Assembly: GCF_000966975.1 (NCBI RefSeq)
Contig: NZ_JZWV01000675.1
Span: 1 to 11,980, forward strand
Origin: Streptomyces katrae
GTDB taxonomy: Bacteria > Actinomycetota > Actinomycetes > Streptomycetales > Streptomycetaceae
Direction: 5' to 3'
DNA length: 11,980 nt
Of this stretch, positions 39 to 11,306 are shown piece after piece. Made by a program: the position numbers and the translations under genes. Within the stretch, counting starts at the first letter, position 1, and each line of letters starts with the position of its first letter. The notes below the pieces were generated by a model. That model was not told the DNA's origin. It made no database searches and worked only from the letters and a program-made list of their open reading frames with translations.

Positions 39-927
39 TCATTCGGGGCGGGCGAAGCGGTGGGCGGCCCAGAGGAGGGCGAGGACCCCGATCGTCAGGA
101 GGACCCCCGCTTCGAGGGCGAGCGGGGGCCGGCTGCCGAACCATTCGACGCCCGTCACGGCCGCCTGGTGCGGCTCGGGACCGCGATGGAGCGGCGCAGC
201 AGGAGCGGCGCAGCAGGTCGACGCCGTAGGCGAGCGGGTTTCCGGCGGCCAGGGTCCGGGCCCAGGCGGGCAGGTTCTCCAGCGGGAAGAAGCCGCCGGA
301 GAGGAACAGCAGCGGCATCATCACCAGGCCGAGCAGCATGTGGAACATCTCGGGGCGGGCCAGGCTCACGGCCAGGGCCAGGGACAGCGCGGTGATGGTG
401 AAGGAGGCCAGCACCATGCCGGCCAGCAGCAGGGCCAGCAGGAGCGGATCGTAGGGCAGGCCGACGGCTCCGGCGAGGGTGAGCAGCACCGCGCCCTGGA
501 CGGCGGCGACCGCGGTGCCCCCGGCGCAGACGCCCAGCAGGAGGGTGGAGCGGCGTACGGGTGCCATCAGCAGTTCGCGCAGGTAGCCGCTCTGCCGGTC
601 GGTGATCAGCCGGATGCCCACCATGATCGCCGGGCCCTGCACCGTCATCATCAGCATGCCGGGGAACAGGTACGTCCGGTAGCCGACGCCCAGCGCCGCC
701 TCGGGGATCAGGGCGGCCAGACCGCCTCCGAGGAGGAAGAGGTAGAGCACCGGCTGGATCAGCATCAGCGCGGTGTGGACGCGCTGGTGCGCCAGGCGCA
801 GCAGATCGCGGTGGACGAGGGCGTGGACGGCGCGCAGTTCGCCGCGCAGGCGGTCGAGCGGCGCGGGCTCGGGGAGGTCGGCGGCGGCCGCGGGGGCTCC
901 CGGGGCCCGCAGGGCGGATGTGGTCAC
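39..927 (-). CDS. lanH: ABC-2 type permease of the lanthipeptide exporter, with a C-terminal frameshift
   Basis: This is the membrane half of an ABC exporter, presumably partnering the ATPase encoded just upstream to move the lanthipeptide out of the cell (VenH-like role). Translation from the GTG at 927, which overlaps the ATPase stop as GTGA, gives a DrrB-like protein. Hydrophobic segments lie around 'ALMLIQPVLYLFLLGGG', 'YLFPGMLMM', 'STLLLGVCAGG', 'LLLALLLAGMVLASFTI' and 'MMPLLFLSGGFFPLENLP'. That frame reaches 'NPLAYGVDLLRRS' and then enters two perfect 14-bp copies (189-202 and 203-216). It continues as low-complexity Arg/Pro sequence with no stop to base 1. The expected last helix ('LALEAGVLLTIGVLALLWAA') and a proper stop at 39-41 are in another frame. 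Removing one base inside the repeat would join them as 'LLRRSAAPLHRGPEPHQ'. Either the gene is mutated or the read has an indel there. The permease identity is firm; the state of the C-terminus is not. Confidence 0.8.
189..216. repeat. Perfect 14-bp tandem repeat at the permease frameshift
   Basis: GAGCGGCGCAGCAG occurs twice in direct tandem at 189-202 and 203-216. The permease reading frame changes at this point. Deleting one whole copy does not restore the downstream frame, because the net change needed is -1 or +2 bases. The repeat is therefore a slippage-prone site, not by itself the full explanation. Confidence 0.9.
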
Positions 928-1988
928 GCTCCCCCCTCGGCGGGCGTCGTCGTGGCGTGCGCCCCGGGGCGTGCGCCGCGGATGCTGCGGCCGGTGTGGT
1001 GGAAGAAGACGTCGTCGAGCGTCGGCGGGGTCGCGGAGGCCGCGTGCACCGGGATGCCGTGGTCCGCCAGGGCGGCGCACAGGCGCGGGATCCAGGAGCC
1101 GCCGTCGGGCACGCGCAGGGCGATCCCCTCGCCGTCCAGCGTCGTAGGGGTCCGCGGCGGGACGGCCCCGCGGACGATCTCGCGCGCCGCCGGGTCGTCC
1201 CCGGTGCGCAGCACGACCCGGTCGTCGCCGATCGCGGCCTTCAGCGCGCGGGGGGTGCCCTGGGCGACCAGGCGGCCGCCGTCGATGATGGCCAGGCGGT
1301 CGCAGTTCTCCGCCTCGCCCAGGTAGTGGGTGGTGACGAACAGGGTGGTGCCCTGGCGGTCGCGGAGGGTGCGCAGGTGCTCCCAGACCTGGGCGCGGGC
1401 GTGCGGGTCGAGTCCCGTGGTCGGCTCGTCGAGGAACAGGATCCGCGGTTCGTGCAGGAGGCCGCGGGCGAGTTCGAGGCGGCGTCGCATGCCGCCGGAG
1501 AGGGTCCGCACCGGGGAGCGCCGCCGGCCGGCCAGCGCGACGGCCTCCAGCGCCTCGGTGGCGCGCCGGCGGGCGTGGCGGCGGCCCATGCCGTAGAGGC
1601 GGGCGTGGATGTGGAGGTTCTGTTCGGCCGTCAGGTCCATGTCCAGGGCGCTGTGCTGGAAGAGCATTCCCACCTGTCGTCGGACCCGGTCCGGCCGGCC
1701 GAGCACGTCGGTGCCGGCCACCGTGGCGCGCCCGGCGGTGGGCCGGGTCAGGGCGCAGAGCAGGGCGATGGTGGTGGATTTCCCCGCGCCGTTGGGGCCG
1801 AGGAAGGCGAAGGTCTCTCCCTGGTGCACGTCCAGGTCGAGGCCGCGCACGGCGTGGGTGGCGGTTCCGTCCGGGCCCGGGTAGCTCTTGGCGAGCCCGC
1901 GCGTGCTGATGGCGTACGCCGTCCCCGGGTCCGAGGGGGCGGCGGCCGTGGCCGGTCCGGGGGCGTCGTCGCGGGCGTGTGGCTGCAT
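924..1988 (-). CDS. lanT: ABC transporter ATP-binding protein of the lanthipeptide exporter (DrrA-like)
   Basis: This 354-residue ATPase energises export, most likely of the lanthipeptide made by the upstream genes. Visible motifs are Walker A GPNGAGKST (64-72), Q-loop around Q111, signature LSGGM (163-167), Walker B ILFLDE (183-188), D-loop GLDP and switch His221 (VTTH). A C-terminal extension with 'TLDDVFFHHTGRSIRG' is typical of DrrA/CcmA-type exporters of drugs and peptides. The ATG at 1988 has a GAGGA Shine-Dalgarno-like element about 8-9 bases upstream. The stop overlaps the permease GTG by four bases, indicating translational coupling. It is separated from lanA by 291 bp containing two strong hairpins, so it may be read at a lower level than lanA or from its own promoter. 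It is a half-transporter ATPase with no peptidase C39 domain, so unlike class II LanT proteins it cannot remove the leader. The symbol follows the VenT naming. Confidence 0.93.
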   Translation of the reverse strand: MQPHARDDAPGPATAAAPSDPGTAYAISTRGLAKSYPGPDGTATHAVRGLDLDVHQGETFAFLGPNGAGKSTTIALLCALTRPTAGRATVAGTDVLGRPDRVRRQVGMLFQHSALDMDLTAEQNLHIHARLYGMGRRHARRRATEALEAVALAGRRRSPVRTLSGGMRRRLELARGLLHEPRILFLDEPTTGLDPHARAQVWEHLRTLRDRQGTTLFVTTHYLGEAENCDRLAIIDGGRLVAQGTPRALKAAIGDDRVVLRTGDDPAAREIVRGAVPPRTPTTLDGEGIALRVPDGGSWIPRLCAALADHGIPVHAASATPPTLDDVFFHHTGRSIRGARPGAHATTTPAEGGA

Positions 1989-2279: not shown

Positions 2280-2435
2280 TCAGGCGCAGCTGACGCCCAC
2301 ACAGACGGTGTTGAGGATGGTCAGGATGCCGACGCAGACGCAGGTGTCGGCGAAGCCGGCCCCGTCGGCGCCGACCGGGTCGGTCTCGGGAAGGGCGTGC
2401 AGGTGAGCCAGCAGTTCGAAGTCGCGGGTCTCCAT
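2280..2435 (-). CDS. lanA: Class IV lanthipeptide precursor, venezuelin-like
   Basis: This 51-residue ribosomal precursor is modified by LanL: Ser/Thr in the core are phosphorylated, eliminated and joined to Cys as (methyl)lanthionine. The leader (about 1-28) contains 'FELLAHLHALPETDPVG', which I recall as almost the same as the VenA leader of venezuelin in Streptomyces venezuelae. The core has Thr31, Thr39, Thr43, Ser49 and Cys32, Cys34, Cys45, Cys50 ('DTCVCVG' to 'NTVCVGVSCA'). These are four dehydratable residues and four cysteines at the same spacing as venezuelin. Remembered differences are mostly Ile/Val/Leu exchanges, Val33 in place of Glu, and Asp30 in place of Ala. The ATG at 2435 is preceded by AGAAGGAGAAAGCC, a strong RBS. 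The gene is 60 bp after lanL. The cleavage point cannot be seen, and no peptidase gene is in the window. Confidence 0.93.
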   Translation of the reverse strand: METRDFELLAHLHALPETDPVGADGAGFADTCVCVGILTILNTVCVGVSCA

Positions 2436-2445
2436 GGCTTTCTCC

Positions 2446-2479
2446 TTCTCTGTGGGTGTGCGTTCTCTGTGGGTGTGCG
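2446..2479 (-). repeat. Perfect 17-bp tandem repeat in the lanL-lanA spacer, just before the lanA RBS
   Basis: TTCTCTGTGGGTGTGCG occurs twice back to back (2446-2462 and 2463-2479). On the mRNA this reads as two copies of CGCACACCCACAGAGAA directly followed by GGAGAAAGCC and the lanA ATG. The stretch is CA-rich and G-poor and should be unstructured, unlike its surroundings. A role in keeping the precursor RBS open is possible but inferred. Confidence 0.9.
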
Positions 2480-2495
2480 GCAGGTTCGCTGCCGC
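2477..2495 (-). other. 7-bp stem hairpin directly after the lanL stop
   Basis: GCGGCAG (2477-2483) and CTGCCGC (2489-2495) pair around a 5-base loop. The structure abuts the lanL TGA (2496-2498) and slightly overlaps the 17-bp tandem repeat that precedes lanA. It could mark the 5' end of a processed lanA mRNA or act as a weak intergenic attenuator. The structure is seen; the role is inferred. Confidence 0.5.
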
Positions 2496-5156
2496 TCAGC
2501 CCGGCTGCTGGATGGTCCAGAGCCGGGAGTCCTTGTGGCGGGTCCTCAGGAGGAACGCGAGGATGCCCGCGCTGCCGTCGCTCCAGCCCGTCGAGACGTC
2601 CCCGTATTCGGTGGGGAAGACGACGTGGCTTCCGCGGTGGGCCCGTTCGGCGGTGATGAGGCGGGCCAGGTCCTCGGCCGTGGCGTGGTGGGCGGGGTCG
2701 CCGGTGGCCGTGGCCAGGTCGAGGAGGAAGTCTCCGTTTCCCGCCAGTCCGTGGCACTGGCCGAGGGGGGCGCGGGGGGCGCGCTCCGCGACGGCCCGGC
2801 CGGCGGCGCGGGCCAGTTCACCGAAGCGCTCGTCCCCGGTGGCCCGCCACAGCCGGACCAGGAAGGTGCCGATGCCCGCGGCGCCGTGGCACCAGTAGGG
2901 CGCCGTGGGCACGTCACCGGCCTGCGTCGGCCACTGGGCCGCCCCGCCGACCCGCACCACTGCCGCGACCAGCTCCTCACCGGCCGCCAGGGCCAGGTCG
3001 AGGTAGTCCCGGCGGTCCGTGACGGCCGCGGCTTCGAGGAGGAAGTATCCGATGCCGGACGTTCCGTGGGCGAAGCCGAGGTAGCGTTTGCCGGCCTCGG
3101 TGGCGACGGCGGATTCCGCCGGTACGGGCCAGCTCACGCCGTTCGGCGCGGGCCGTGCCTCGGCGGCCAGCCGGTCGGCGGCCTCGGTGACGAGGTCGGC
3201 GAACCGGGGGTCGCCGGTGCGGTGCCACAGGTGGGCGGCCGCCAGTCCGCTGCCGGCCCGGCCGTGGGTGATGTCGTGGCTGGGCGTGGGCTGCTGCGGG
3301 GCCAGGGCCAGGGCCATCGCGTGGTCGCGGAGGGCGCGGTCGTCGACGGCGCGTGCGGCCTCGTACAGGGCCCAGGCCGTCCCGCGTCCGCCGAAGTGCA
3401 GGCCGGGGCGGGCGGAGCGGGTGTCCGTCCGGTCCGCGATCCAGTGGCCCGCGGTGGATATGACCTCCGGGAGGCGCGGGTCGCCGGTGAGCCGGAAGTA
3501 CCGGGTCAGGACGGCCAGTACGCCGGCCGCGCCCTGCTGGACCGTACAGGGGTCCGTCTCTCCGGCCTTGGTGGACACGGGCCACAGCCGCGGCGCGTCC
3601 TTCGGGGCCATCGTGTCGACGAGGTGGTTCACGATGCCCTCCACCGTGGCCGCCATCACGTCGGGCGGCGGGGTGGCGGCCGGGCGCGGGGGGCTCGTCC
3701 TGTCCGCCGCGCGCAGGACCGCGCGGGCGGCCGCCGGGTCCCAGCGGTCGGCCGGGTCGTCCCTCATCAGTCCGAGGATCATGTCGGGAAGGCCGTCGGG
3801 CAGGGGGTGCCCGGCGCCGGCGGCGGCCAGCCATGCGGCGAGGCGCTGGTCGGCGGGGCGGGTGGCGGGCTCCTCGGGCAGCAGGTGGGGGACCTTGCCC
3901 ATGAGGACGAGGCACGCGGTGGCGCCGAGGCTGTAGTAGTCGGCCGTCGGGGAGACGGGGGCGTCCGCCAGGCGTTCGGGGGCGCTGTACCCGGGGGTGC
4001 CCACGGTGGTCGGGAGGGGGGTGTCGCCCTTGAGGACGGCGAGTTCGAGGTCGATGAGGCGCAGTTCGCCGTCGGGGCGCACCATGATGTTGCCGGGGGT
4101 GAAGTCCCGTAGGACGCAGCCGTGCGCGTGGGCCGCGGCGACGAGGTCGATCAGCCGGCCGACCTGGGTGAGGGCGTCGGCGCGGTAGCGTTCGGCGCCG
4201 ACGTCGCGGAAGTGTTCGGCGACCCAGGTGCGCAGGGGGACGCCCGGTATCTCCTCCTGGGCGAGGAACAGGTGCCCGGCGTGTTCGAACACGGCGAGGG
4301 GTTCCGGTGCCAGGCCGGTGCCGCCGAGCTCCTCCAGGGCCCGTGCCTCGGCGCGCAGCCAGTCGCGGACGTCGCGGCCCGACGCGTCGGTCTCCACGTG
4401 CGGGCGGGCCTCCTTGATGACCACCGGCGCGCCCGTGGTGACGTCCGTGCCCCGGTAGACGCCGCCCTTGTTGGTGTACCGGATCGCCTCCTTGACCGCG
4501 AAGCGGCCGCCGAGCAGGACCGGGTCCTTCGCCGCCTCCTCCGCCGGGCGCGGGGCGGGCAGCGTGGCGGGGAAGGGGCTGACCGCCCAGGCCGGGGGTG
4601 CGTACTGGCCGGTGCGCACGTCCTCGACGGGGTTTCCGTCGGGGTCCTCGATGTACCAGACCAGCAGTCCCTCCTCGGAGAGCCTGCGGCGGCCGACGAA
4701 GGCGCCGTAGCGGTAGTGGACCAGGCTGTTCACGGCGTAGGGCTGGTCAGAGAGGATGCGGGGGCCGTCGAGCCCGGCGGTGGCCGTGTGCAGTGCCAGG
4801 GCCAGCCGGGCCGCGTCGGTGTCGGAGCGCGGGTAGACGGTGATGAACTTGCCCGAGCTCCCCCGGGGTGTGGCTCGGGTGTTGAGTGCGCCGACCTGCT
4901 CGAGGGAGCGGGCGAACTTGAAGGCCGACGCGTCCCGCAGCAGGACGTCCAGGGCCCGGGTGAGGACCTTCGGCGCGGAGGCGGCCGTCGCCGAGACGTG
5001 GAGTTTCCAGCCCTGGGCGCGCGGTGTCGCGGACCGGGGCGTGAGGCGGCACCACATGTCGTCCGTGTCGGTGGTCCAACGCGCGGCCCCGCCCGTGGAG
5101 TCGATGGCCTGTCGGAGGAGTTCTTCGAGGTCGGCTTCGGTTGCGTGGCTGGTCAT
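2496..5156 (-). CDS. lanL: Class IV lanthionine synthetase (lyase-kinase-cyclase)
   Basis: This 886-residue cytoplasmic enzyme converts LanA to the lanthipeptide. The N-terminal OspF/SpvC-like phospho-Ser/Thr lyase (about 1-200) shows 'KLHVS' (K51, H53), 'FKFARS' (K80) and 'GKFITVYP' (K103). The kinase (about 213-485) has a VIKE lysine (K248), catalytic 'LRDFTPGN' (D351, N356), DLE (369-371) in place of DFG, and an APE motif (392-394). The LanC cyclase (about 500-875) shows repeated GxxG motifs, 'WCHG' (C755) and 'CHG' (C801, H802). These complete the zinc site, which class III LanKC cyclases lack, so this is class IV like VenL. The ATG at 5156 is chosen because AGAGGG lies six bases upstream and the lyase domain begins there. 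The open frame continues upstream to 5474, but that stretch has lower GC and rare codons (TTA, ATA, CTA, AGA) and is judged non-coding. It probably starts the operon lanLATH. Confidence 0.95.
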   Translation of the reverse strand: MTSHATEADLEELLRQAIDSTGGAARWTTDTDDMWCRLTPRSATPRAQGWKLHVSATAASAPKVLTRALDVLLRDASAFKFARSLEQVGALNTRATPRGSSGKFITVYPRSDTDAARLALALHTATAGLDGPRILSDQPYAVNSLVHYRYGAFVGRRRLSEEGLLVWYIEDPDGNPVEDVRTGQYAPPAWAVSPFPATLPAPRPAEEAAKDPVLLGGRFAVKEAIRYTNKGGVYRGTDVTTGAPVVIKEARPHVETDASGRDVRDWLRAEARALEELGGTGLAPEPLAVFEHAGHLFLAQEEIPGVPLRTWVAEHFRDVGAERYRADALTQVGRLIDLVAAAHAHGCVLRDFTPGNIMVRPDGELRLIDLELAVLKGDTPLPTTVGTPGYSAPERLADAPVSPTADYYSLGATACLVLMGKVPHLLPEEPATRPADQRLAAWLAAAGAGHPLPDGLPDMILGLMRDDPADRWDPAAARAVLRAADRTSPPRPAATPPPDVMAATVEGIVNHLVDTMAPKDAPRLWPVSTKAGETDPCTVQQGAAGVLAVLTRYFRLTGDPRLPEVISTAGHWIADRTDTRSARPGLHFGGRGTAWALYEAARAVDDRALRDHAMALALAPQQPTPSHDITHGRAGSGLAAAHLWHRTGDPRFADLVTEAADRLAAEARPAPNGVSWPVPAESAVATEAGKRYLGFAHGTSGIGYFLLEAAAVTDRRDYLDLALAAGEELVAAVVRVGGAAQWPTQAGDVPTAPYWCHGAAGIGTFLVRLWRATGDERFGELARAAGRAVAERAPRAPLGQCHGLAGNGDFLLDLATATGDPAHHATAEDLARLITAERAHRGSHVVFPTEYGDVSTGWSDGSAGILAFLLRTRHKDSRLWTIQQPG

Positions 5157-5276
5157 GACCGTCCCTCTCAACGGCGGGGGCCGCTGGTTGGAATATGCCT
5201 TCGGTAAGGAAGAACGTACAGCCGGGGTTCTGAGGAAGTCACTTGGATTCGGCGAGCGCACGGTGTTGTTGAAAGG

Positions 5277-5294
5277 CCGGCTGGTGTCAACCGG
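5277..5294 (-). promoter_or_regulatory. Imperfect palindrome overlapping a TTGACA -35-like hexamer upstream of lanL
   Basis: On the lanL strand the sequence is CCGGTTG-ACAC-CAGCCGG, with 6 of 7 arm positions complementary. It contains TTGACA (5290 to 5285), about 128 bases before the lanL ATG. A matching TAnnnT -10 element at 16-18 bp spacing is not visible. It is a candidate operator only. Confidence 0.3.
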
Positions 5295-5359
5295 AGCGGA
5301 AAGGAAGTGCGTGGATAGTGCGCGCGGTGGTAATTCACCGGCGGCCGTTCGGTGTTGTT

Positions 5360-5687: not shown

Positions 5688-6365
5688 TCAGCGGGGACCG
5701 GAGAGGCCGGAGCGCTCCAGCGCGCGCAGCACGGCCTCCCGGTCAGCCGCCGTGTGGTCGTCGGCGCAGTCGGCGAGCACCGCCTCGATCTCGCGGGCGC
5801 CGAGGCGGTGGGCCTCCGCCGCGGCCAGGAGCCCTAGCGCACGCTCCCGGGGAACGCCCCGGTCGGCGTACACCAGCAGGTCCAGAGCCTTCTCGCGCAC
5901 CGCGAAGCGGCTCATTCCGCAGTCGAGGCCGTCGTCGGCCAGCCCGTCGGGGTAGGGCGCGCGGGCCCAGGCGCCGTCCTCGTACCAGTAGACGCAGCCC
6001 AGTTCCCAGCCTTCCAGGAGCCCCCGCAAGCGCTGGAACGGCAGCCAGTCCGGCGCCTGCGCCAGCATGTCGATCGTTGGCTCGTGCCATTTGACGGCGC
6101 TGGACTCGTCCTCGCCGTAGAGGACGTAGCGGCCCCGGCCCATCGGCGCGAGGGTCCACCAGGTGCAGCCGCAGTCGTCGAGGTGCAGGCCCTCTTCGTC
6201 GATCCAGGTGCCGGTCCGGTGGACGCGGGGCGTCCGCTCCCCCTCCTCCCCGGCCTCCAGGACGGCGGCCAGGGCCCAGCGGGCCCACAGCAGTTCGGCC
6301 GCCGGCAGGTCCTCGGGCCGACCGGGCCTCTCGATCCCCATGCGGTACCACTCCTCGTTCCCCAT
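5688..6365 (-). CDS. Hypothetical protein with a duplicated start region
   Basis: I do not recognise this protein. Starting at the ATG at 6365 it has 225 residues; starting at the ATG at 6341 it has 217. It is acidic and tryptophan-rich ('CGCTWWTLAPMGRGRYVLYGEDES', 'YWYEDGAWARAPYPDG') and ends in a predicted all-alpha stretch ('ALGLLAAAEAHRLGAREIEAVLADCADDH'). There is no signal peptide or membrane segment, so it is probably cytosolic. This kind of Trp/acid-rich, single-domain actinobacterial protein is often found beside immunity-like genes, but no family can be named. Both candidate ATGs are preceded by GAGGAG at nine bases because a 24-bp unit is duplicated. A further in-frame ATG at 6404 has no RBS. 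The frame is supported by codon bias. It is followed by the 531-bp gap before lanL and is probably not part of the lanthipeptide operon. Confidence 0.75.
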   Translation of the reverse strand: MGNEEWYRMGIERPGRPEDLPAAELLWARWALAAVLEAGEEGERTPRVHRTGTWIDEEGLHLDDCGCTWWTLAPMGRGRYVLYGEDESSAVKWHEPTIDMLAQAPDWLPFQRLRGLLEGWELGCVYWYEDGAWARAPYPDGLADDGLDCGMSRFAVREKALDLLVYADRGVPRERALGLLAAAEAHRLGAREIEAVLADCADDHTAADREAVLRALERSGLSGPR

Positions 6366-6384
6366 GCGGTACCACTCCTCGTTC
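6337..6384 (-). repeat. Perfect 24-bp tandem duplication copying an RBS and start codon
   Basis: The 24 bases at 6337-6360 recur exactly at 6361-6384. On the gene strand each unit carries GAACGAGGAG, a nine-base spacer and ATG, so it duplicates a complete translation start. Because 24 is a multiple of three the two ATGs are in frame, and initiation at the upstream one adds eight residues (MGNEEWYR) before the second Met. Confidence 0.93.
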
Positions 6385-6482
6385 CTCGCACCGTGACCGT
6401 CCATGATCGCAGGCCGGGGCGAGGTCCTGGTTCCGAGGTCTCCCGAAAACCTCGACGGCCGTCTCGGCGCGGTGGTCAGGGG

Positions 6483-6500
6483 GTGGTCCGAGTGGTCCGA
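6483..6500. repeat. 9-bp tandem repeat in the 6366-6583 intergenic stretch
   Basis: GTGGTCCGA is present twice in tandem (6483-6491 and 6492-6500), preceded by a related GTGGTCAGG. It lies 120-135 bp upstream of the duplicated start of the 5688-6365 gene, in an otherwise gene-free 218-bp stretch where that gene's promoter should be. It could be direct-repeat operator half-sites or simple slippage. Confidence 0.5.
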
Positions 6501-6583
6501 CACCTGCCGCATGGCGCCGCCACCTCGGCGACACCACACCCTGTTCGGCTCCTTGCGCCTGATCCGAGGGGCTGGCGGAGGGG

Positions 6584-6874
6584 TCAGGTCCGCGGAGGGC
6601 GGGGATCGTCGTCGGCCAGTTGAGCGATCCAGCCGTACGGGAGCTCCTCGCCGTCCACGGTGACCGCCTCGACGGCCCTGCTCTCGGGGTCGATCTCGGC
6701 TTGGACCCCCTCCCCCTCGAAGCACGGGTAGCCGGAGACACCGGTGGCGCCCGTCGCTTCGACCCGGGCTGTGCGCAGCACGGCGGCGTGGCCCTTGGCG
6801 TCCTGGACGCCGGGCGGGCCGGGGCGCAGGACGACGGTGTACCGGTCGGGGACGGGAGGGGGCGCGGCAGTCAT
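6584..6874 (-). CDS. Small uncharacterised protein, possibly of the DUF6296 type
   Basis: The product has 96 residues, no signal peptide and no membrane segment. The central 'ARVEATGATGVSGYPCFEGEGVQAEID' is followed by 'VTVDGEELPYGWIAQLADDDPRPPRT'. The layout (N-terminal strand 'RYTVVLRPGPPGV', then 'ATGATG.SGYP') reminds me of short Streptomyces proteins annotated DUF6296, but this is recall and not a search. The ATG at 6874 is kept because the family-like strand starts about ten residues later; only GAGG close to the ATG could serve as RBS. It lies 150 bp after the 7025 gene and 218 bp before the next gene, so it may be transcribed alone. Function unknown. Confidence 0.7.
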   Translation of the reverse strand: MTAAPPPVPDRYTVVLRPGPPGVQDAKGHAAVLRTARVEATGATGVSGYPCFEGEGVQAEIDPESRAVEAVTVDGEELPYGWIAQLADDDPRPPRT

Positions 6875-7024: not shown

Positions 7025-7558
7025 CTATTCGGGGAAGGAGTAGTAGAGCGCCTTGCCGTAGAAGGACGCGAAGTGTTCCTGCCAGTCGGCGCGGACCGAG
7101 GCGAGCCATTCCTGGTTCTCACCCGCGATCGCCGCCTCGGCGCTGGCGACGGCGGCGGGGATGTCGGCGGAGACCAGCCGCTCGACCGCCGCCACCGGGT
7201 CCTCGTCCCCGAGGGAGACCATTTCCCCGGTCTCCAGGAGGAAGTACTGCGCGCGCTGGCTCTCCAGGTGCGTCGTGGTCGTCTTCACGCACCTGGCGAA
7301 CTCGTCGTCCTCCTCCAGTCCCTGACCGACCGCGAGGAGAAGGCCCCGTAGCAGGGCGGCGCCCCTGTCGTAGTCCGCGGCGATGCCGATCCGGGGGCTC
7401 CAGATCATGGAGGGGACGACCGTCGTGCCGTATCCGACCAGCAGCTGGTGGGCGAGCGGGATGGCCCAATTGTGCTCCGATATGCACCGGATCGGCTTGG
7501 GGATGTCGTCCTCGGTGGGGACCGAGTCGGCGGAGAAGAGATAGGAACGGTTTGCCAT
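7025..7558 (-). CDS. Uncharacterised 177-residue protein beginning MANRSYLFS
   Basis: I recognise the N-terminus MANRSYL as one shared by a wide family of uncharacterised bacterial proteins, but cannot assign a DUF number with certainty. The sequence continues with 'SVPTEDDIPKPIRCISEHNWAIPLAHQLLV' and ends 'EWLASVRADWQEHFASFYGKALYYSFPE'. It is acidic and soluble with no signal peptide, with an alpha-helical second half. The ATG at 7558 is preferred over an in-frame GTG at 7588 because of the conserved MANRSYL start and a TTAGGG-like RBS. Proteins of this look are often immunity- or stress-associated accessory proteins; no toxin partner is visible next to it. It sits 75 bp downstream of the zinc-ribbon gene (7634) on the same strand, so read-through is possible. 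Confidence 0.8.
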   Translation of the reverse strand: MANRSYLFSADSVPTEDDIPKPIRCISEHNWAIPLAHQLLVGYGTTVVPSMIWSPRIGIAADYDRGAALLRGLLLAVGQGLEEDDEFARCVKTTTTHLESQRAQYFLLETGEMVSLGDEDPVAAVERLVSADIPAAVASAEAAIAGENQEWLASVRADWQEHFASFYGKALYYSFPE

Positions 7559-7633
7559 GTCGGCGACCCTAACAGCGGGGTCTGACACCGGTGCTCGTCC
7601 GCCGCGGCCGCGGGCGGGGCGGGCGGCGGCCGC

Positions 7634-8383
7634 TCAGGCGTCCGGGAGGACGAGGAAGACCTCCGAGAACGAGAGGCCGTGCCGGTCGGTCTCCTGTCCG
7701 CACGGGCAGCCCAGGGTAACGCGACGCCAGTCGCAGGTCACGGACCAGGGGCCGTCCGCGTTCCCGCACCCGGAGCAACGGAAGGTGTCGGCCGTCCAGA
7801 CGTCGTGGGCGGGTCGCCCGTAGTGCCGGAACCGGCCCGCGTACCGGGTCTGCCAGGGAGCGGCTGCGGGCGTGCGCGGGACGGTCCCAGGCGGGTGCGG
7901 GGCGGACAGTGCGGCGAAGAGGTCTGTCATGTCGGGCAGGAGGGCCTCACCGGCCTCCGTCGGGGCAGCCGGGAAGCCCTCCCCCGTGCCCCGGGGAAGC
8001 GGGTAGTGCGGAGCCGCCGCGGCGGAGGGCGGGTTCGGGACGGCGAACCACGGCAGGAGGGCCCGGGCCACGGCGGCCAGCAGGGCCGCGGCCGGCGCGC
8101 TGACCGCGCCCGCGTCGAGGTGGTGGACCGCGCTGCGCCAGATCCTCTGGAGCCGCCGGTCCCGGTCCACCGCCCGCGCCCGTGCGCTGCCGGCCCGGCG
8201 GGTGGGGAGCGGGGCGGTGAGGCGGGCGAGCACCCTGGCCGCCGCGTCGGTGTCCGCCGCGTCGGGGCGCCACTCCCCGGCGGCCAGCATGCGCCGGGCG
8301 CGTTCCGATTCACGGGTCAGCGCGAGAACGGCCAGTTCCTGAGGGCCTGAGGTCGAGGGTGGAGTGGCCTCACTGCCCGACAT
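7634..8383 (-). CDS. Uncharacterised protein with a C-terminal cysteine-rich, zinc-ribbon-like motif
   Basis: The 249-residue product has an Ala/Arg-rich helical N-terminal part ('ESERARRMLAAGEWRPDAADTDAAARVLARLTAPL'), a Pro-rich linker, and a cysteine cluster near the end: CxxC (C203, C206), C217, and CPC (C226, C228) in 'GCPCGQETDRHG'. This pattern suggests a small metal-binding ribbon or a thiol-reactive site; the metal is an inference. The ATG at 8383 has GAGGTG seven bases upstream, and the start lies 14 bp inside the ECM4-like gene, implying translational coupling and a shared transcript. An extension to 8431 is open but lacks support. I do not recognise the family. Being coupled to a thioredoxin-fold gene behind a sulfur-type leader peptide makes a thiol or metal role plausible. 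Confidence 0.75.
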   Translation of the reverse strand: MSGSEATPPSTSGPQELAVLALTRESERARRMLAAGEWRPDAADTDAAARVLARLTAPLPTRRAGSARARAVDRDRRLQRIWRSAVHHLDAGAVSAPAAALLAAVARALLPWFAVPNPPSAAAAPHYPLPRGTGEGFPAAPTEAGEALLPDMTDLFAALSAPHPPGTVPRTPAAAPWQTRYAGRFRHYGRPAHDVWTADTFRCSGCGNADGPWSVTCDWRRVTLGCPCGQETDRHGLSFSEVFLVLPDA

Positions 8384-9320
8384 TCGCTTCACCTCTGCGT
8401 CCCGTTCCCGTTCTCCCGTCCAGCCTCGCACGATCGCGCCGAGCGTGCTTGGCGGCGCGGACCGCTCCGGTCCCCCGGTCCGGCACGTGTCCCGCCCAGT
8501 CCACGATCCGTACCGCCGCCCCGGCCGCCTCCTCGCCCCGGCACTGCGCGTGGTGCCGGCGGGCGATGCCGTCCAGGTCGAGGTGGGGCGCGAAGGCGGG
8601 ATGCGCCGCCAGCCGCCGCGCGTATGCCCACAGGTGCGGGTGGTCGGTGAGGCGGTAGACCGCCGCCGCGTCCAGGTGCCAGCGGTGCACGGTGTCCAGC
8701 TGGACCAGCGTCACCCACAACTGGACGTCGGCGGCGGTCGGTTCCACGCCCAGCAGGTACTCGGCGGCGGAGAGCCGCCGCTCCAGCGCGCCCAGTGCGC
8801 GCAGCAGGGTGGCGAGGGCGGTGTCGCGTTCCGCCTGGTCCCCGCCGGCCCGGCCGGCGCGCTGTGCCGCCGCGTTGATGCCCTCCTCGCAGAGCCTTCC
8901 GATGGCCTCGATCCGTGCGTCGGTGCCGGCCGGGTACAGCTGCCGGCCGCCGGTGTCGAAGAGCCTGCCCATGTCCTGGAGGATGTCCGGGGCGTGCGTG
9001 CTGACGATCCGTCCGGTCCAGGAGTCGGCGAGCACCGGTGCCACGGCCGGTCCGGGGTGGCGGTGGGAGCTGGCCTGGTAGAGCGGGCGCAGTGCCAGGT
9101 GTCCGCCGTCGGGTGCGTCGGGCACGGCGGGCAGCAGCGTCATCGGGAGGACGTCCTCCAGGGCGAGCAGGCTGTGCGTGACCGCGATCCGCAGACAGGA
9201 CGGGCCGGACGGCGAAAGGTGGAGCCGGTAGCGGTGCGGCACGGCGGGATATCCGCTGCGCGCGTCACGGCCGATCCTGCTCCGGAAGGACGGCGCGTCG
9301 GTCGGACGAGTGGTGGACAT
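8370..9320 (-). CDS. ECM4/YqjG-like (glutathionyl-hydroquinone reductase family) protein lacking the catalytic Cys
   Basis: The 316-residue protein follows the Xi-class glutathione transferase layout. An N-terminal thioredoxin-like half (about 15-110) carries 'PVLADSWTGRIVSTHAPDILQDM', matching the family's 'PVLWD..TG.IV.NES..I'. The helical C-terminal half carries 'LGVEPTAADVQLWVTLVQLDTVHRWHL' and 'DHPHLWAYARRLAAHPAF', both characteristic. In true glutathionyl-hydroquinone reductases the active site is CPWAHR. Here the aligned segment is G-P-S-C-L-R (39-44), so the nucleophile is Gly39, while a Cys remains at position 42. The last 55 residues are an Arg/Gly-rich tail. Actinobacteria use mycothiol rather than glutathione, so the substrate is open. 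The ATG at 9320 has GGGAG at a good distance. A leader peptide ends 95 bp upstream, and the next gene overlaps by 14 bp. Confidence 0.82.
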   Translation of the reverse strand: MSTTRPTDAPSFRSRIGRDARSGYPAVPHRYRLHLSPSGPSCLRIAVTHSLLALEDVLPMTLLPAVPDAPDGGHLALRPLYQASSHRHPGPAVAPVLADSWTGRIVSTHAPDILQDMGRLFDTGGRQLYPAGTDARIEAIGRLCEEGINAAAQRAGRAGGDQAERDTALATLLRALGALERRLSAAEYLLGVEPTAADVQLWVTLVQLDTVHRWHLDAAAVYRLTDHPHLWAYARRLAAHPAFAPHLDLDGIARRHHAQCRGEEAAGAAVRIVDWAGHVPDRGTGAVRAAKHARRDRARLDGRTGTGRRGEANVGQ

Positions 9321-9415
9321 GCTTCTCCCTGGGAGTGCTCGGGCACGGGGCATGCGACGGCGACGGCCGGCGACGGATTCGGCGCGGCCGGGACCCGGAG
9401 GGTGAGGGGCGCAGG

Positions 9416-9571
9416 TCAGCGGCGGGCGGGCGCGGGAGCGCCGGGGTGCGGGGGATTCGCCGCACTGCACACGCGCAGGAGGTCGATGTGGCGGCGGGTC
9501 GTCAGCAGCGGGCACGCGGGCACGGCGGCGCGTACGCCGTCGGTGCGTCCGTCCCTCGCTGAACAGCCCAT
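9416..9571 (-). CDS. Candidate regulatory leader peptide ('TRRHIDLLRV' type)
   Basis: This 51-codon ORF runs from the ATG at 9571 (AGGG five bases upstream) to TGA at 9416-9418. Its middle reads 'LLTTRRHIDLLRVCSA' (22-37), which I recognise as the hallmark of short actinobacterial ORFs annotated 'putative leader peptide', usually found before sulfur or cysteine metabolism genes. Here it is in the 5' region of the ECM4-like gene, 95 bp before its ATG, on the same strand. Cys occurs at 3, 20 and 35, so translation could sense cysteinyl-tRNA, though no attenuator stem is obvious downstream. Compared with the usual type it has a longer N-terminus and a Pro-rich tail ('NPPHPGAPAPARR'), and the usual Cys after 'SA' is missing. 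Other frames here look like shadows. The motif match is strong; the regulatory mechanism is inferred. Confidence 0.75.
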   Translation of the reverse strand: MGCSARDGRTDGVRAAVPACPLLTTRRHIDLLRVCSAANPPHPGAPAPARR

Positions 9572-9608
9572 GATTCCCTACCACTTCACCAGGATTCGCC
9601 GTTCTGGA

Positions 9609-10297: not shown

Positions 10298-11287
10298 TCA
10301 GGCCTGGCGGGCAGAGGCTGCGAGCCGGTCGGCGAGCGCGAGGACGAGGTCTCGTAGTTCGTCCGGTCGCTCGATGACGAACGGCCGGTCGAGCGAGGCG
10401 AGCACGGGTGGCAGCCAGTCGAGCCGCTCTGCTCTCAGTTCGACGTGGAACCAGCGCTCGGTGTGCGGATCCGCGGCTTCCGCGGGGACGATCTCCTTCA
10501 CGCTCGCGATGCCGGCAGGCAGTCGGGTGCGGATCTGTTCGACCGTCCCGTGGATCCGCAGGGTCACCTCGTGCCGGTATGCGGCCCCGGCGAGCCCTGA
10601 CAGGACGCGCTGGGCCGGATCGAGGCCGGCGGGCGGCTCGAATGAGCCTGGCAAGGGCCTTGCGTCCGCGATGCGGTCGAGCCGGAAGGTCCGGTCCTGG
10701 CCGATCTCGGGATCGCTGCCCGTGATGTACCACCGGCCCTCGTGGGCGACGATCCCGTACGGGTGCAGGGTGCGTTCGCTTCGTCGGCCGTCTCGGGCGG
10801 TGTACCTGATCAAGGTCGGGCGGCTGTGGCGTACCGCGTCGGCGATGGCGAGCAGGACGCCCGTCTCCGGGGTGGCCGCCTCGCCGGGCTCAGCCGTGAA
10901 GGCGAGGGATTCCATGACGGCGTCGAGCCGACGGGCCAGACGCTCGGGCAGTGCCCGGCGGATCTTGGCCGCCGCCGTCTCGCCCGCGGTTCCGGTCGTC
11001 GCCGGCAACCCGGTCCTGCGGCCGGCGGCGAGGCCGAGCAGCACGGCGAGCGCCTCGTCGTCGTTGAGCATGAGCGGAGGCAGTCGGTAGCCGGGGGCGA
11101 GCCGGTACCCGCCGTAGCGGCCGCGGATCGCCTCGACCGGGATGTCGAGGTCGACGAGGTGGCCCACGTACCGCCGCACGGTGCGTGCGTCGACGCCGAG
11201 CCGGTCGGCGAGTTCGGCCATCGTTCTGATGCCGCCCGACTGCAGGAGTTCCAGGAGGGTGAGCACGCGGCTGGTGGGTCGAGCCAT
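10298..11287 (-). CDS. WYL-domain transcriptional regulator (YafY/DeoR-like HTH)
   Basis: The 329-residue protein is a one-component DNA-binding regulator. The N-terminal winged HTH (about 3-62) contains 'MAELADRLGVDARTVRRYVGHL' and the wing 'RGRYGGYRL'. The WYL domain (about 140-225) contains 'TLHPYGIVAHEGRWYITG' (WYI 186-188 in place of WYL) and 'FRLDRI' (201-206). A WCX-like C-terminal extension runs to the end ('VTLRIHGTVEQIRTRL', 'LDWLPPVLASLDRPFVIERPDELR'). The ATG at 11287 is preferred; the GTG at 11293 is two codons further out and no RBS is seen for either. TACGCT seven bases before the ATG would fit a -10 for a leaderless mRNA. It is divergent from the VOC gene with a 94-bp gap that holds a 25-bp inverted repeat, so it probably controls itself and the VOC gene. 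The ligand is unknown. Confidence 0.92.
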   Translation of the reverse strand: MARPTSRVLTLLELLQSGGIRTMAELADRLGVDARTVRRYVGHLVDLDIPVEAIRGRYGGYRLAPGYRLPPLMLNDDEALAVLLGLAAGRRTGLPATTGTAGETAAAKIRRALPERLARRLDAVMESLAFTAEPGEAATPETGVLLAIADAVRHSRPTLIRYTARDGRRSERTLHPYGIVAHEGRWYITGSDPEIGQDRTFRLDRIADARPLPGSFEPPAGLDPAQRVLSGLAGAAYRHEVTLRIHGTVEQIRTRLPAGIASVKEIVPAEAADPHTERWFHVELRAERLDWLPPVLASLDRPFVIERPDELRDLVLALADRLAASARQA

Positions 11288-11306
11288 GTCCACGAGCGTA
11301 GCGTTG

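Follow-up and report, generated by a model that had tools for sequence, protein, structure and literature searches.

Venezuelin, the class IV lanthipeptide of Streptomyces venezuelae, is specified by four genes in the order venL, venA, venT and venH (Goto et al. 2010, PMC2843593). The rings of the modified VenA peptide are built from Cys32, Cys34, Cys45 and Cys50 together with dehydrobutyrine (Dhb) at 31, 39 and 43 and dehydroalanine (Dha) at 49; Ala51 follows, and the residues before the core are Pro27-Phe28-Ala29-Ala30. Treatment of VenA with VenL, whose lyase residues are Lys51, His53, Arg83 and Tyr108, led to the loss of four waters and of the free thiols, and a ring topology was proposed. 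Deletion of venA or venL left growth and morphology unchanged with no antibiotic difference seen, the product could be detected in neither S. venezuelae nor S. lividans, and the in vitro products showed no antimicrobial activity against three test strains (PMC2843593). Streptocollin from S. collinus Tu 365, globisporin (SgbA) and others are termed venezuelin-like class IV peptides in reviews (PMC10676316, PMC12328550), one of which describes streptocollin as a seemingly moderate PTP1B inhibitor (PMC10676316), and 815 class IV clusters were tallied in a 2020 survey (PMC7268733). Here we analyse a locus of this kind in Streptomyces katrae, on a stretch of 11,980 bp (contig NZ_JZWV01000675.1, hereafter the window) whose minus strand carries the genes lanL, lanA, lanT and lanH, in that order.

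A predicted venezuelin-type operon

The four genes are as follows.

2496..5156, minus strand: lanL, class IV lanthionine synthetase of 886 amino acids with lyase, kinase and LanC-like cyclase domains (NCBIfam NF038150, Pfam)
2280..2435, minus strand: lanA, VenA-family precursor of 51 amino acids, ATG to stop (NCBIfam NF038147)
924..1988, minus strand: lanT, ATP-binding subunit of an ATP-binding cassette (ABC) transporter, 354 amino acids (Pfam ABC_tran)
39..927, minus strand: lanH, ABC transporter permease, frame-shifted near 188-217 in this assembly (relatives, sequence)

We read the locus as a venezuelin-type (VenA family) class IV lanthipeptide operon, at a probability of about 95%. The initial annotation, made from the letters of the window, had proposed a venezuelin-like locus with a 51-codon precursor gene beside a LanL synthetase, and this identification holds: both products score far above the cut-offs of their NCBIfam models. 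The lanA product, METRDFELLAHLHALPETDPVGADGAGFADTCVCVGILTILNTVCVGVSCA (51 residues), matches NF038147 (VenA family class IV lanthipeptide) at 91.2 bits (cut-off 35, E = 3.5e-26; model positions 1-49 of 49), with identities to VenA-type precursors of up to 90%, and LanL matches NF038150 (class IV synthetase) at 1206 bits (cut-off 650). The open reading frame (ORF) that encodes the precursor begins 60 nt beyond the end of lanL and has an AAGGAG ribosome-binding site 5' of its ATG. Its leader spans residues ~1-29 and its ring region residues 31-50, in which all eight ring-forming residues (Thr31, Cys32, Cys34, Thr39, Thr43, Cys45, Ser49 and Cys50) are present at the VenA numbers, as had been claimed (PMC2843593).

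The arrangement is widely shared. The order LanL-LanA-LanT-LanH was found in 44 of the 48 named loci that encode a precursor relative, and in 45 of them a LanT relative comes just after lanA. Among the exceptions (L063, L065, L069 and L070), L063 is a contig of 6,998 bp with no LanH match and L070 has neither a LanT nor a LanH match. The two Actinomadura loci, L065 and L069, have a different arrangement, in which some 2 kb separate lanA from the LanL gene upstream and neither LanT nor LanH has a close match beside it.

By analogy with VenL and VenA, the conserved leader (around ELLAHLHALPETDP) would present the C-terminal core to LanL, whose kinase domain is expected to phosphorylate Thr31, Thr39, Thr43 and Ser49 and whose N-terminal lyase domain would eliminate the phosphates to give three Dhb and one Dha. 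The zinc-dependent LanC-like domain would add Cys32, Cys34, Cys45 and Cys50, and the predicted rings are the four overlapping ones proposed for venezuelin (Cys34-Dhb39, Cys45-Dha49, Cys32-Dhb43 and Cys50-Dhb31). The product would probably be exported by the LanT/LanH pair and the leader removed by a protease encoded elsewhere. With four dehydrations (a loss of 72 Da), the monoisotopic masses expected are 3168.475 Da for the GluC fragment Thr18-Ala51 and 2181.046, 2110.008 and 1994.981 Da for cores that start at Ala29, Asp30 and Thr31, respectively.

The sequences show the anatomy of the locus, the family membership and the conservation; the chemical steps, co-transcription, export, leader removal and any activity are what we infer. 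Several points weigh against this reading. The product is known from its genes alone. The exact combination of core residues occurs, among the peptides sampled, in the window peptide only, and ring closure is for this core a prediction. No protease or immunity family was named among the ten window ORFs scanned with Pfam and NCBIfam; the ven cluster, as published, is likewise without such genes (PMC2843593), and a cluster without a protease is unsurprising because for SflA, another class IV peptide, the reported protease lies outside the cluster (PMC10885120). Finally, the frame of lanH is broken, and export may fail in this strain unless the shift is an assembly error.

The transporter genes and the lanH frameshift

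Both genes of the two-part ABC transporter, lanH with its frame shifted in this assembly, lie in order downstream of lanA. The best NCBIfam match of lanT is drrA, at 306.9 bits just below the cut-off of 312.45. The change of frame in lanH coincides with a repeat.

188..217, no strand assigned: perfect 14-bp tandem duplication within the lanH gene (2.1 copies at 100% by Tandem Repeats Finder)

This coincidence is what would be expected of a decaying cluster, in which lanA and lanL are intact, lanH is broken, the peptide is not exported and the locus is a remnant. We consider decay unlikely. The frames of lanL and lanA are open, and some 200 bp separate the shift from the end of the 11,980-bp contig, in a draft assembly of 1873 contigs. 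A full-length permease of 291 amino acids (P0028), encoded on a contig of 271,165 bp, is 99% identical over the part of lanH that precedes the shift, and the 14-bp duplication is not reflected in that protein. The exact window precursor (P0001) was counted on seven contigs, the longest of which also measures 271,165 bp; the agreement of the two figures suggests a near-identical strain whose operon is intact.

A second perfect tandem duplication, of 17 bp, occupies 2446-2479 between lanL and lanA, just 5' of the lanA ribosome-binding site. In eleven relatives inspected by eye, a CACAGAGAA-like stretch or a variant of it is present there as a single copy. Both duplications may be real or may be assembly errors.

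The synthetase

The operon reading places the synthetase in class IV, and the possibility that a class III (LanKC) system has been misread is very remote. LanL does match the LanKC model, and its N-terminal Pfam domain is RamC_N, but the score of 535.2 bits falls under the cut-off of 575, whereas the class IV score of 1206 bits lies well over its cut-off of 650. RamC_N is followed by Pkinase and LANC_like domains. Lys51, His53, Arg83 and Tyr108 of LanL stand at the same numbers as the lyase residues of VenL, and Cys756, Cys801 and His802 lie within CHG motifs, as a zinc-bearing cyclase is expected to have; going by LanC proteins in general, we take Cys756 and Cys801-His802 to be the zinc ligands. 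LanL also matches, over nearly its whole length, the sequence of structure 8car ('Serine/threonine protein kinase', 865 amino acids; E = 6.9e-88).

A search of the strain's own genome for a second LanL returned 32 matches to the model, of which only one exceeds the cut-off; the other 31 are confined to model positions 161-515, the kinase part. Sub-cut-off matches of the LanL model were likewise present in 12 of 14 control genomes.

The precursor gene and its family

The same genome gave a single match to NF038147, the lanA locus itself, so that the model search found no second VenA-type precursor beyond it, and none of the 14 control genomes gave a match. We compared 36 lanA genes of exactly 51 codons (the window and 35 named loci; 630 pairs), using the uncorrected proportions of synonymous (pS) and nonsynonymous (pN) differences, which here derive from few sites. 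For the core the means were pS 0.319 and pN 0.077, for the leader pS 0.244 and pN 0.102, and for residues 25-30 pS 0.434 and pN 0.299. The codons of lanA are under purifying selection. That the ORF arose by chance and the true precursor lies elsewhere is scarcely credible: short ORFs are abundant in a window of high GC content, but this one has a family match at E = 3.5e-26, a core under purifying selection, and relatives that in all 48 named loci were found with a LanL match in the same fetched stretch. Judged by its sequence, the ORF is a genuine LanA precursor gene.

The family was found in 46 of the 392 Streptomyces genomes sampled, the strain's own included (47 matches, 17 of which are not among the fetched loci). 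One of these genomes carries two precursors about 2 Mb apart (G272:C1:3075216-3075368 and 5077248-5077400), 65% and 67% identical to the window peptide. VenA-family ORFs of 68% identity also lie on plasmid records of S. clavuligerus of about 1.8 Mb (NZ_CP045850.1, NZ_CP027859.1 and NZ_CP086233.1), where the gene table consulted, itself incomplete, lists no feature for them.

The initial annotation had described the gene as unlisted. As a statement about its type this fails: NCBI has a model for the family, and 13 of the 26 other proteins recovered bear the NCBI name 'VenA family class IV lanthipeptide'. For older annotation the term is fair, because some 86% of class IV precursors were unannotated in 2020 (PMC7268733). 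The window peptide adds a member to the VenA family, which is known and includes many close relatives, and is not a new kind.

Variation in the core

We collected ~81 distinct precursor peptides (an approximate figure, since start codons were taken mechanically), which contain 40 distinct cores, the window's included; the number of cores is unaffected by the choice of start codon. The 48 named loci and 30 further loci overlap in species, and identical peptides were merged. The eight ring positions are invariant in the 40 cores, as are Gly36, Leu38 and Gly47. For Thr31, Cys32, Cys34 and two later cysteines this invariance is partly built in, since the core pattern itself required them. No fetched locus was lost to that requirement: among L001-L079 only L040, a GTG-start gene whose peptide has the same ring residues, and L079, a copy of the window, were dropped, and the proteins P0002-P0027 entered the set unfiltered.

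Residue 33 is the most variable position of the ring region (Ala in 15 cores, Glu in 15, Gln in 3, Val and Asn in 2 each, and Asp, Thr and Ser in 1 each), and it varies freely across the sample, as does the stretch just N-terminal of the core. Val33, which the initial annotation had singled out, is present in the window peptide, as are Ile37 and Ile40; the corresponding residues of VenA are presumably Glu33, judged in part from the relatives, Leu37 and Leu40. The commonest residues in the relatives are Glu or Ala at 33, Leu at 37 and Leu at 40. Shuffling of the hydrophobic residues is nevertheless not a novelty, as Ile37 occurs in 5 of the 40 cores and Ile40 in 2, the window's included. Val33 is shared with Actinomadura soli (L065), and an uncharged residue 33 does not create the different charge pattern that had been proposed for the N-terminal ring, because Ala is as frequent as Glu. 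The substitution of Asp30 for Ala30 is borne out by Ala-Ala at positions 29-30 of VenA (PMC2843593), and Asp30 is found in four other peptides. Within the sequences compared, each of the stressed substitutions is thus in the family's normal range with a precedent in some relative, and only the combination of residues is new to the sample.

The region upstream of lanL

We aligned the 260 bases before lanL in 47 loci (the window and 46 Streptomyces relatives); the Actinomadura loci L065 and L069, whose LanL match does not start at residue 1, were left out. Conservation is poor beyond -160, where each base carries about 0.2-0.5 bits. Better-conserved blocks, all within window 5156-5300 on the minus strand, lie near -140, between -110 and -80 (around -105) and in the last 50 bases. 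The last block contains an inverted repeat with the consensus CAGCGGT-N4-ACCGTTG, directly before GAGAGGGA.

5169..5186, minus strand: predicted hairpin CAGCGGC-CCCC-GCCGTTG, directly 5' of the lanL ribosome-binding site (GAGAGGGA) (alignment with 46 Streptomyces relatives)

Over 38 distinct rows, 94.0% of the hairpin cells are paired, compared with 18-51% when the pattern is slid by 1-3 columns. Two-sided changes affect three pairs and five cells, values reached by 11 and 1 of 500 shuffles, and the covariation score is reached by 5 of 500, although related sequences may exceed shuffles without any structure. RNAalifold recovered this helix too and gave it a covariation term of only -0.22 kcal/mol. 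Counting against the hairpin, the window sequence folded alone shows no excess stability over shuffles (z -0.54), and some relatives break one or more of its pairs. L060 alone stood out among the five upstream sequences folded (z -4.91), and the fold predicted for L051 and L043 differs from the hairpin. Conservation so close to the start codon may instead stem from the ribosome-binding site or from a protein site in the DNA. The hairpin pattern has one exact match in the strain's own genome, at lanL, and one match with three mismatches, the reversed control giving none; for the -105 block, 25 matches were found when up to two mismatches were allowed (4 in the reversed control), and the only exact one is at lanL.

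From its conservation and modest covariation, the putative hairpin is a lead. It is possible, though we think it doubtful, that a hairpin of 6-7 bp and the -140 and -105 blocks form a dedicated control element 5' of lanL, acting on lanL alone, in the venezuelin-type operons of Streptomyces. Such an element, if real, would help to explain why venezuelin has gone unseen in its host under laboratory conditions, and the shared blocks offer a testable handle on the silence of such clusters in culture. AdpA is not an obvious regulator, because the table of a study of this protein in S. venezuelae gives 0 AdpA sites for the venezuelin cluster (PMC12466573).

Other features of the window

A 24-bp repeat (2.3 copies, 6330-6385) lies within the ORF at 5688-6725 on the minus strand, where it encodes EEWYRMGNEEWYRMG; this ORF has no Pfam or NCBIfam match at E 0.001. 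Also on the minus strand, Pfam identifies a DUF7822 protein (7025-7588), a protein with a glutathione S-transferase (GST) C-terminal domain (8370-9584) and a WYL/helix-turn-helix transcriptional regulator (10298-11293). A search of the window for RNA families (at gathering thresholds) and for transfer RNAs (ARAGORN) found none.

Discussion

Taken alone, the window peptide is one more sequence in a large known family. More use can be made of the comparative data, in that the fixed ring residues, the free residue 33 and the variable stretch before the core suggest which positions tolerate change. Since the ring residues do not vary in the sample and purifying selection acts on the core across many species, the sequences argue for a conserved target. 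We know of none that has been named for venezuelin-type peptides.

Among the relatives, the highest identity to the window peptide (90%) is that of P0003, a VenA-family precursor, by its NCBI name, from an unclassified Streptomyces. The two share the METRDFELLA start, the FADTC junction and Ile37; P0003 is one residue shorter before the core and differs in having Asp in place of the leader His, Ala33, Leu40 and Ile48. The locus of Streptomyces lavendulae CCM 3239 (L031) has the same gene order, with a precursor 84% identical over residues 1-50 and with LanL, LanT and LanH 81%, 84% and 85% identical, respectively; its core differs by Asn30, Asp33, Leu37, Leu40, Ile48 and a C-terminal Asn. With venezuelin itself the window locus has in common a precursor that ends at residue 51, the eight ring residues and their numbering, the gene order and the lyase residues of the synthetase. 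It differs just before the core, where Asp30 replaces Ala30 and, a change absent from the initial annotation, Gly27 replaces Pro27, so that the window peptide reads Gly-Phe-Ala at positions 27-29 (PMC2843593).

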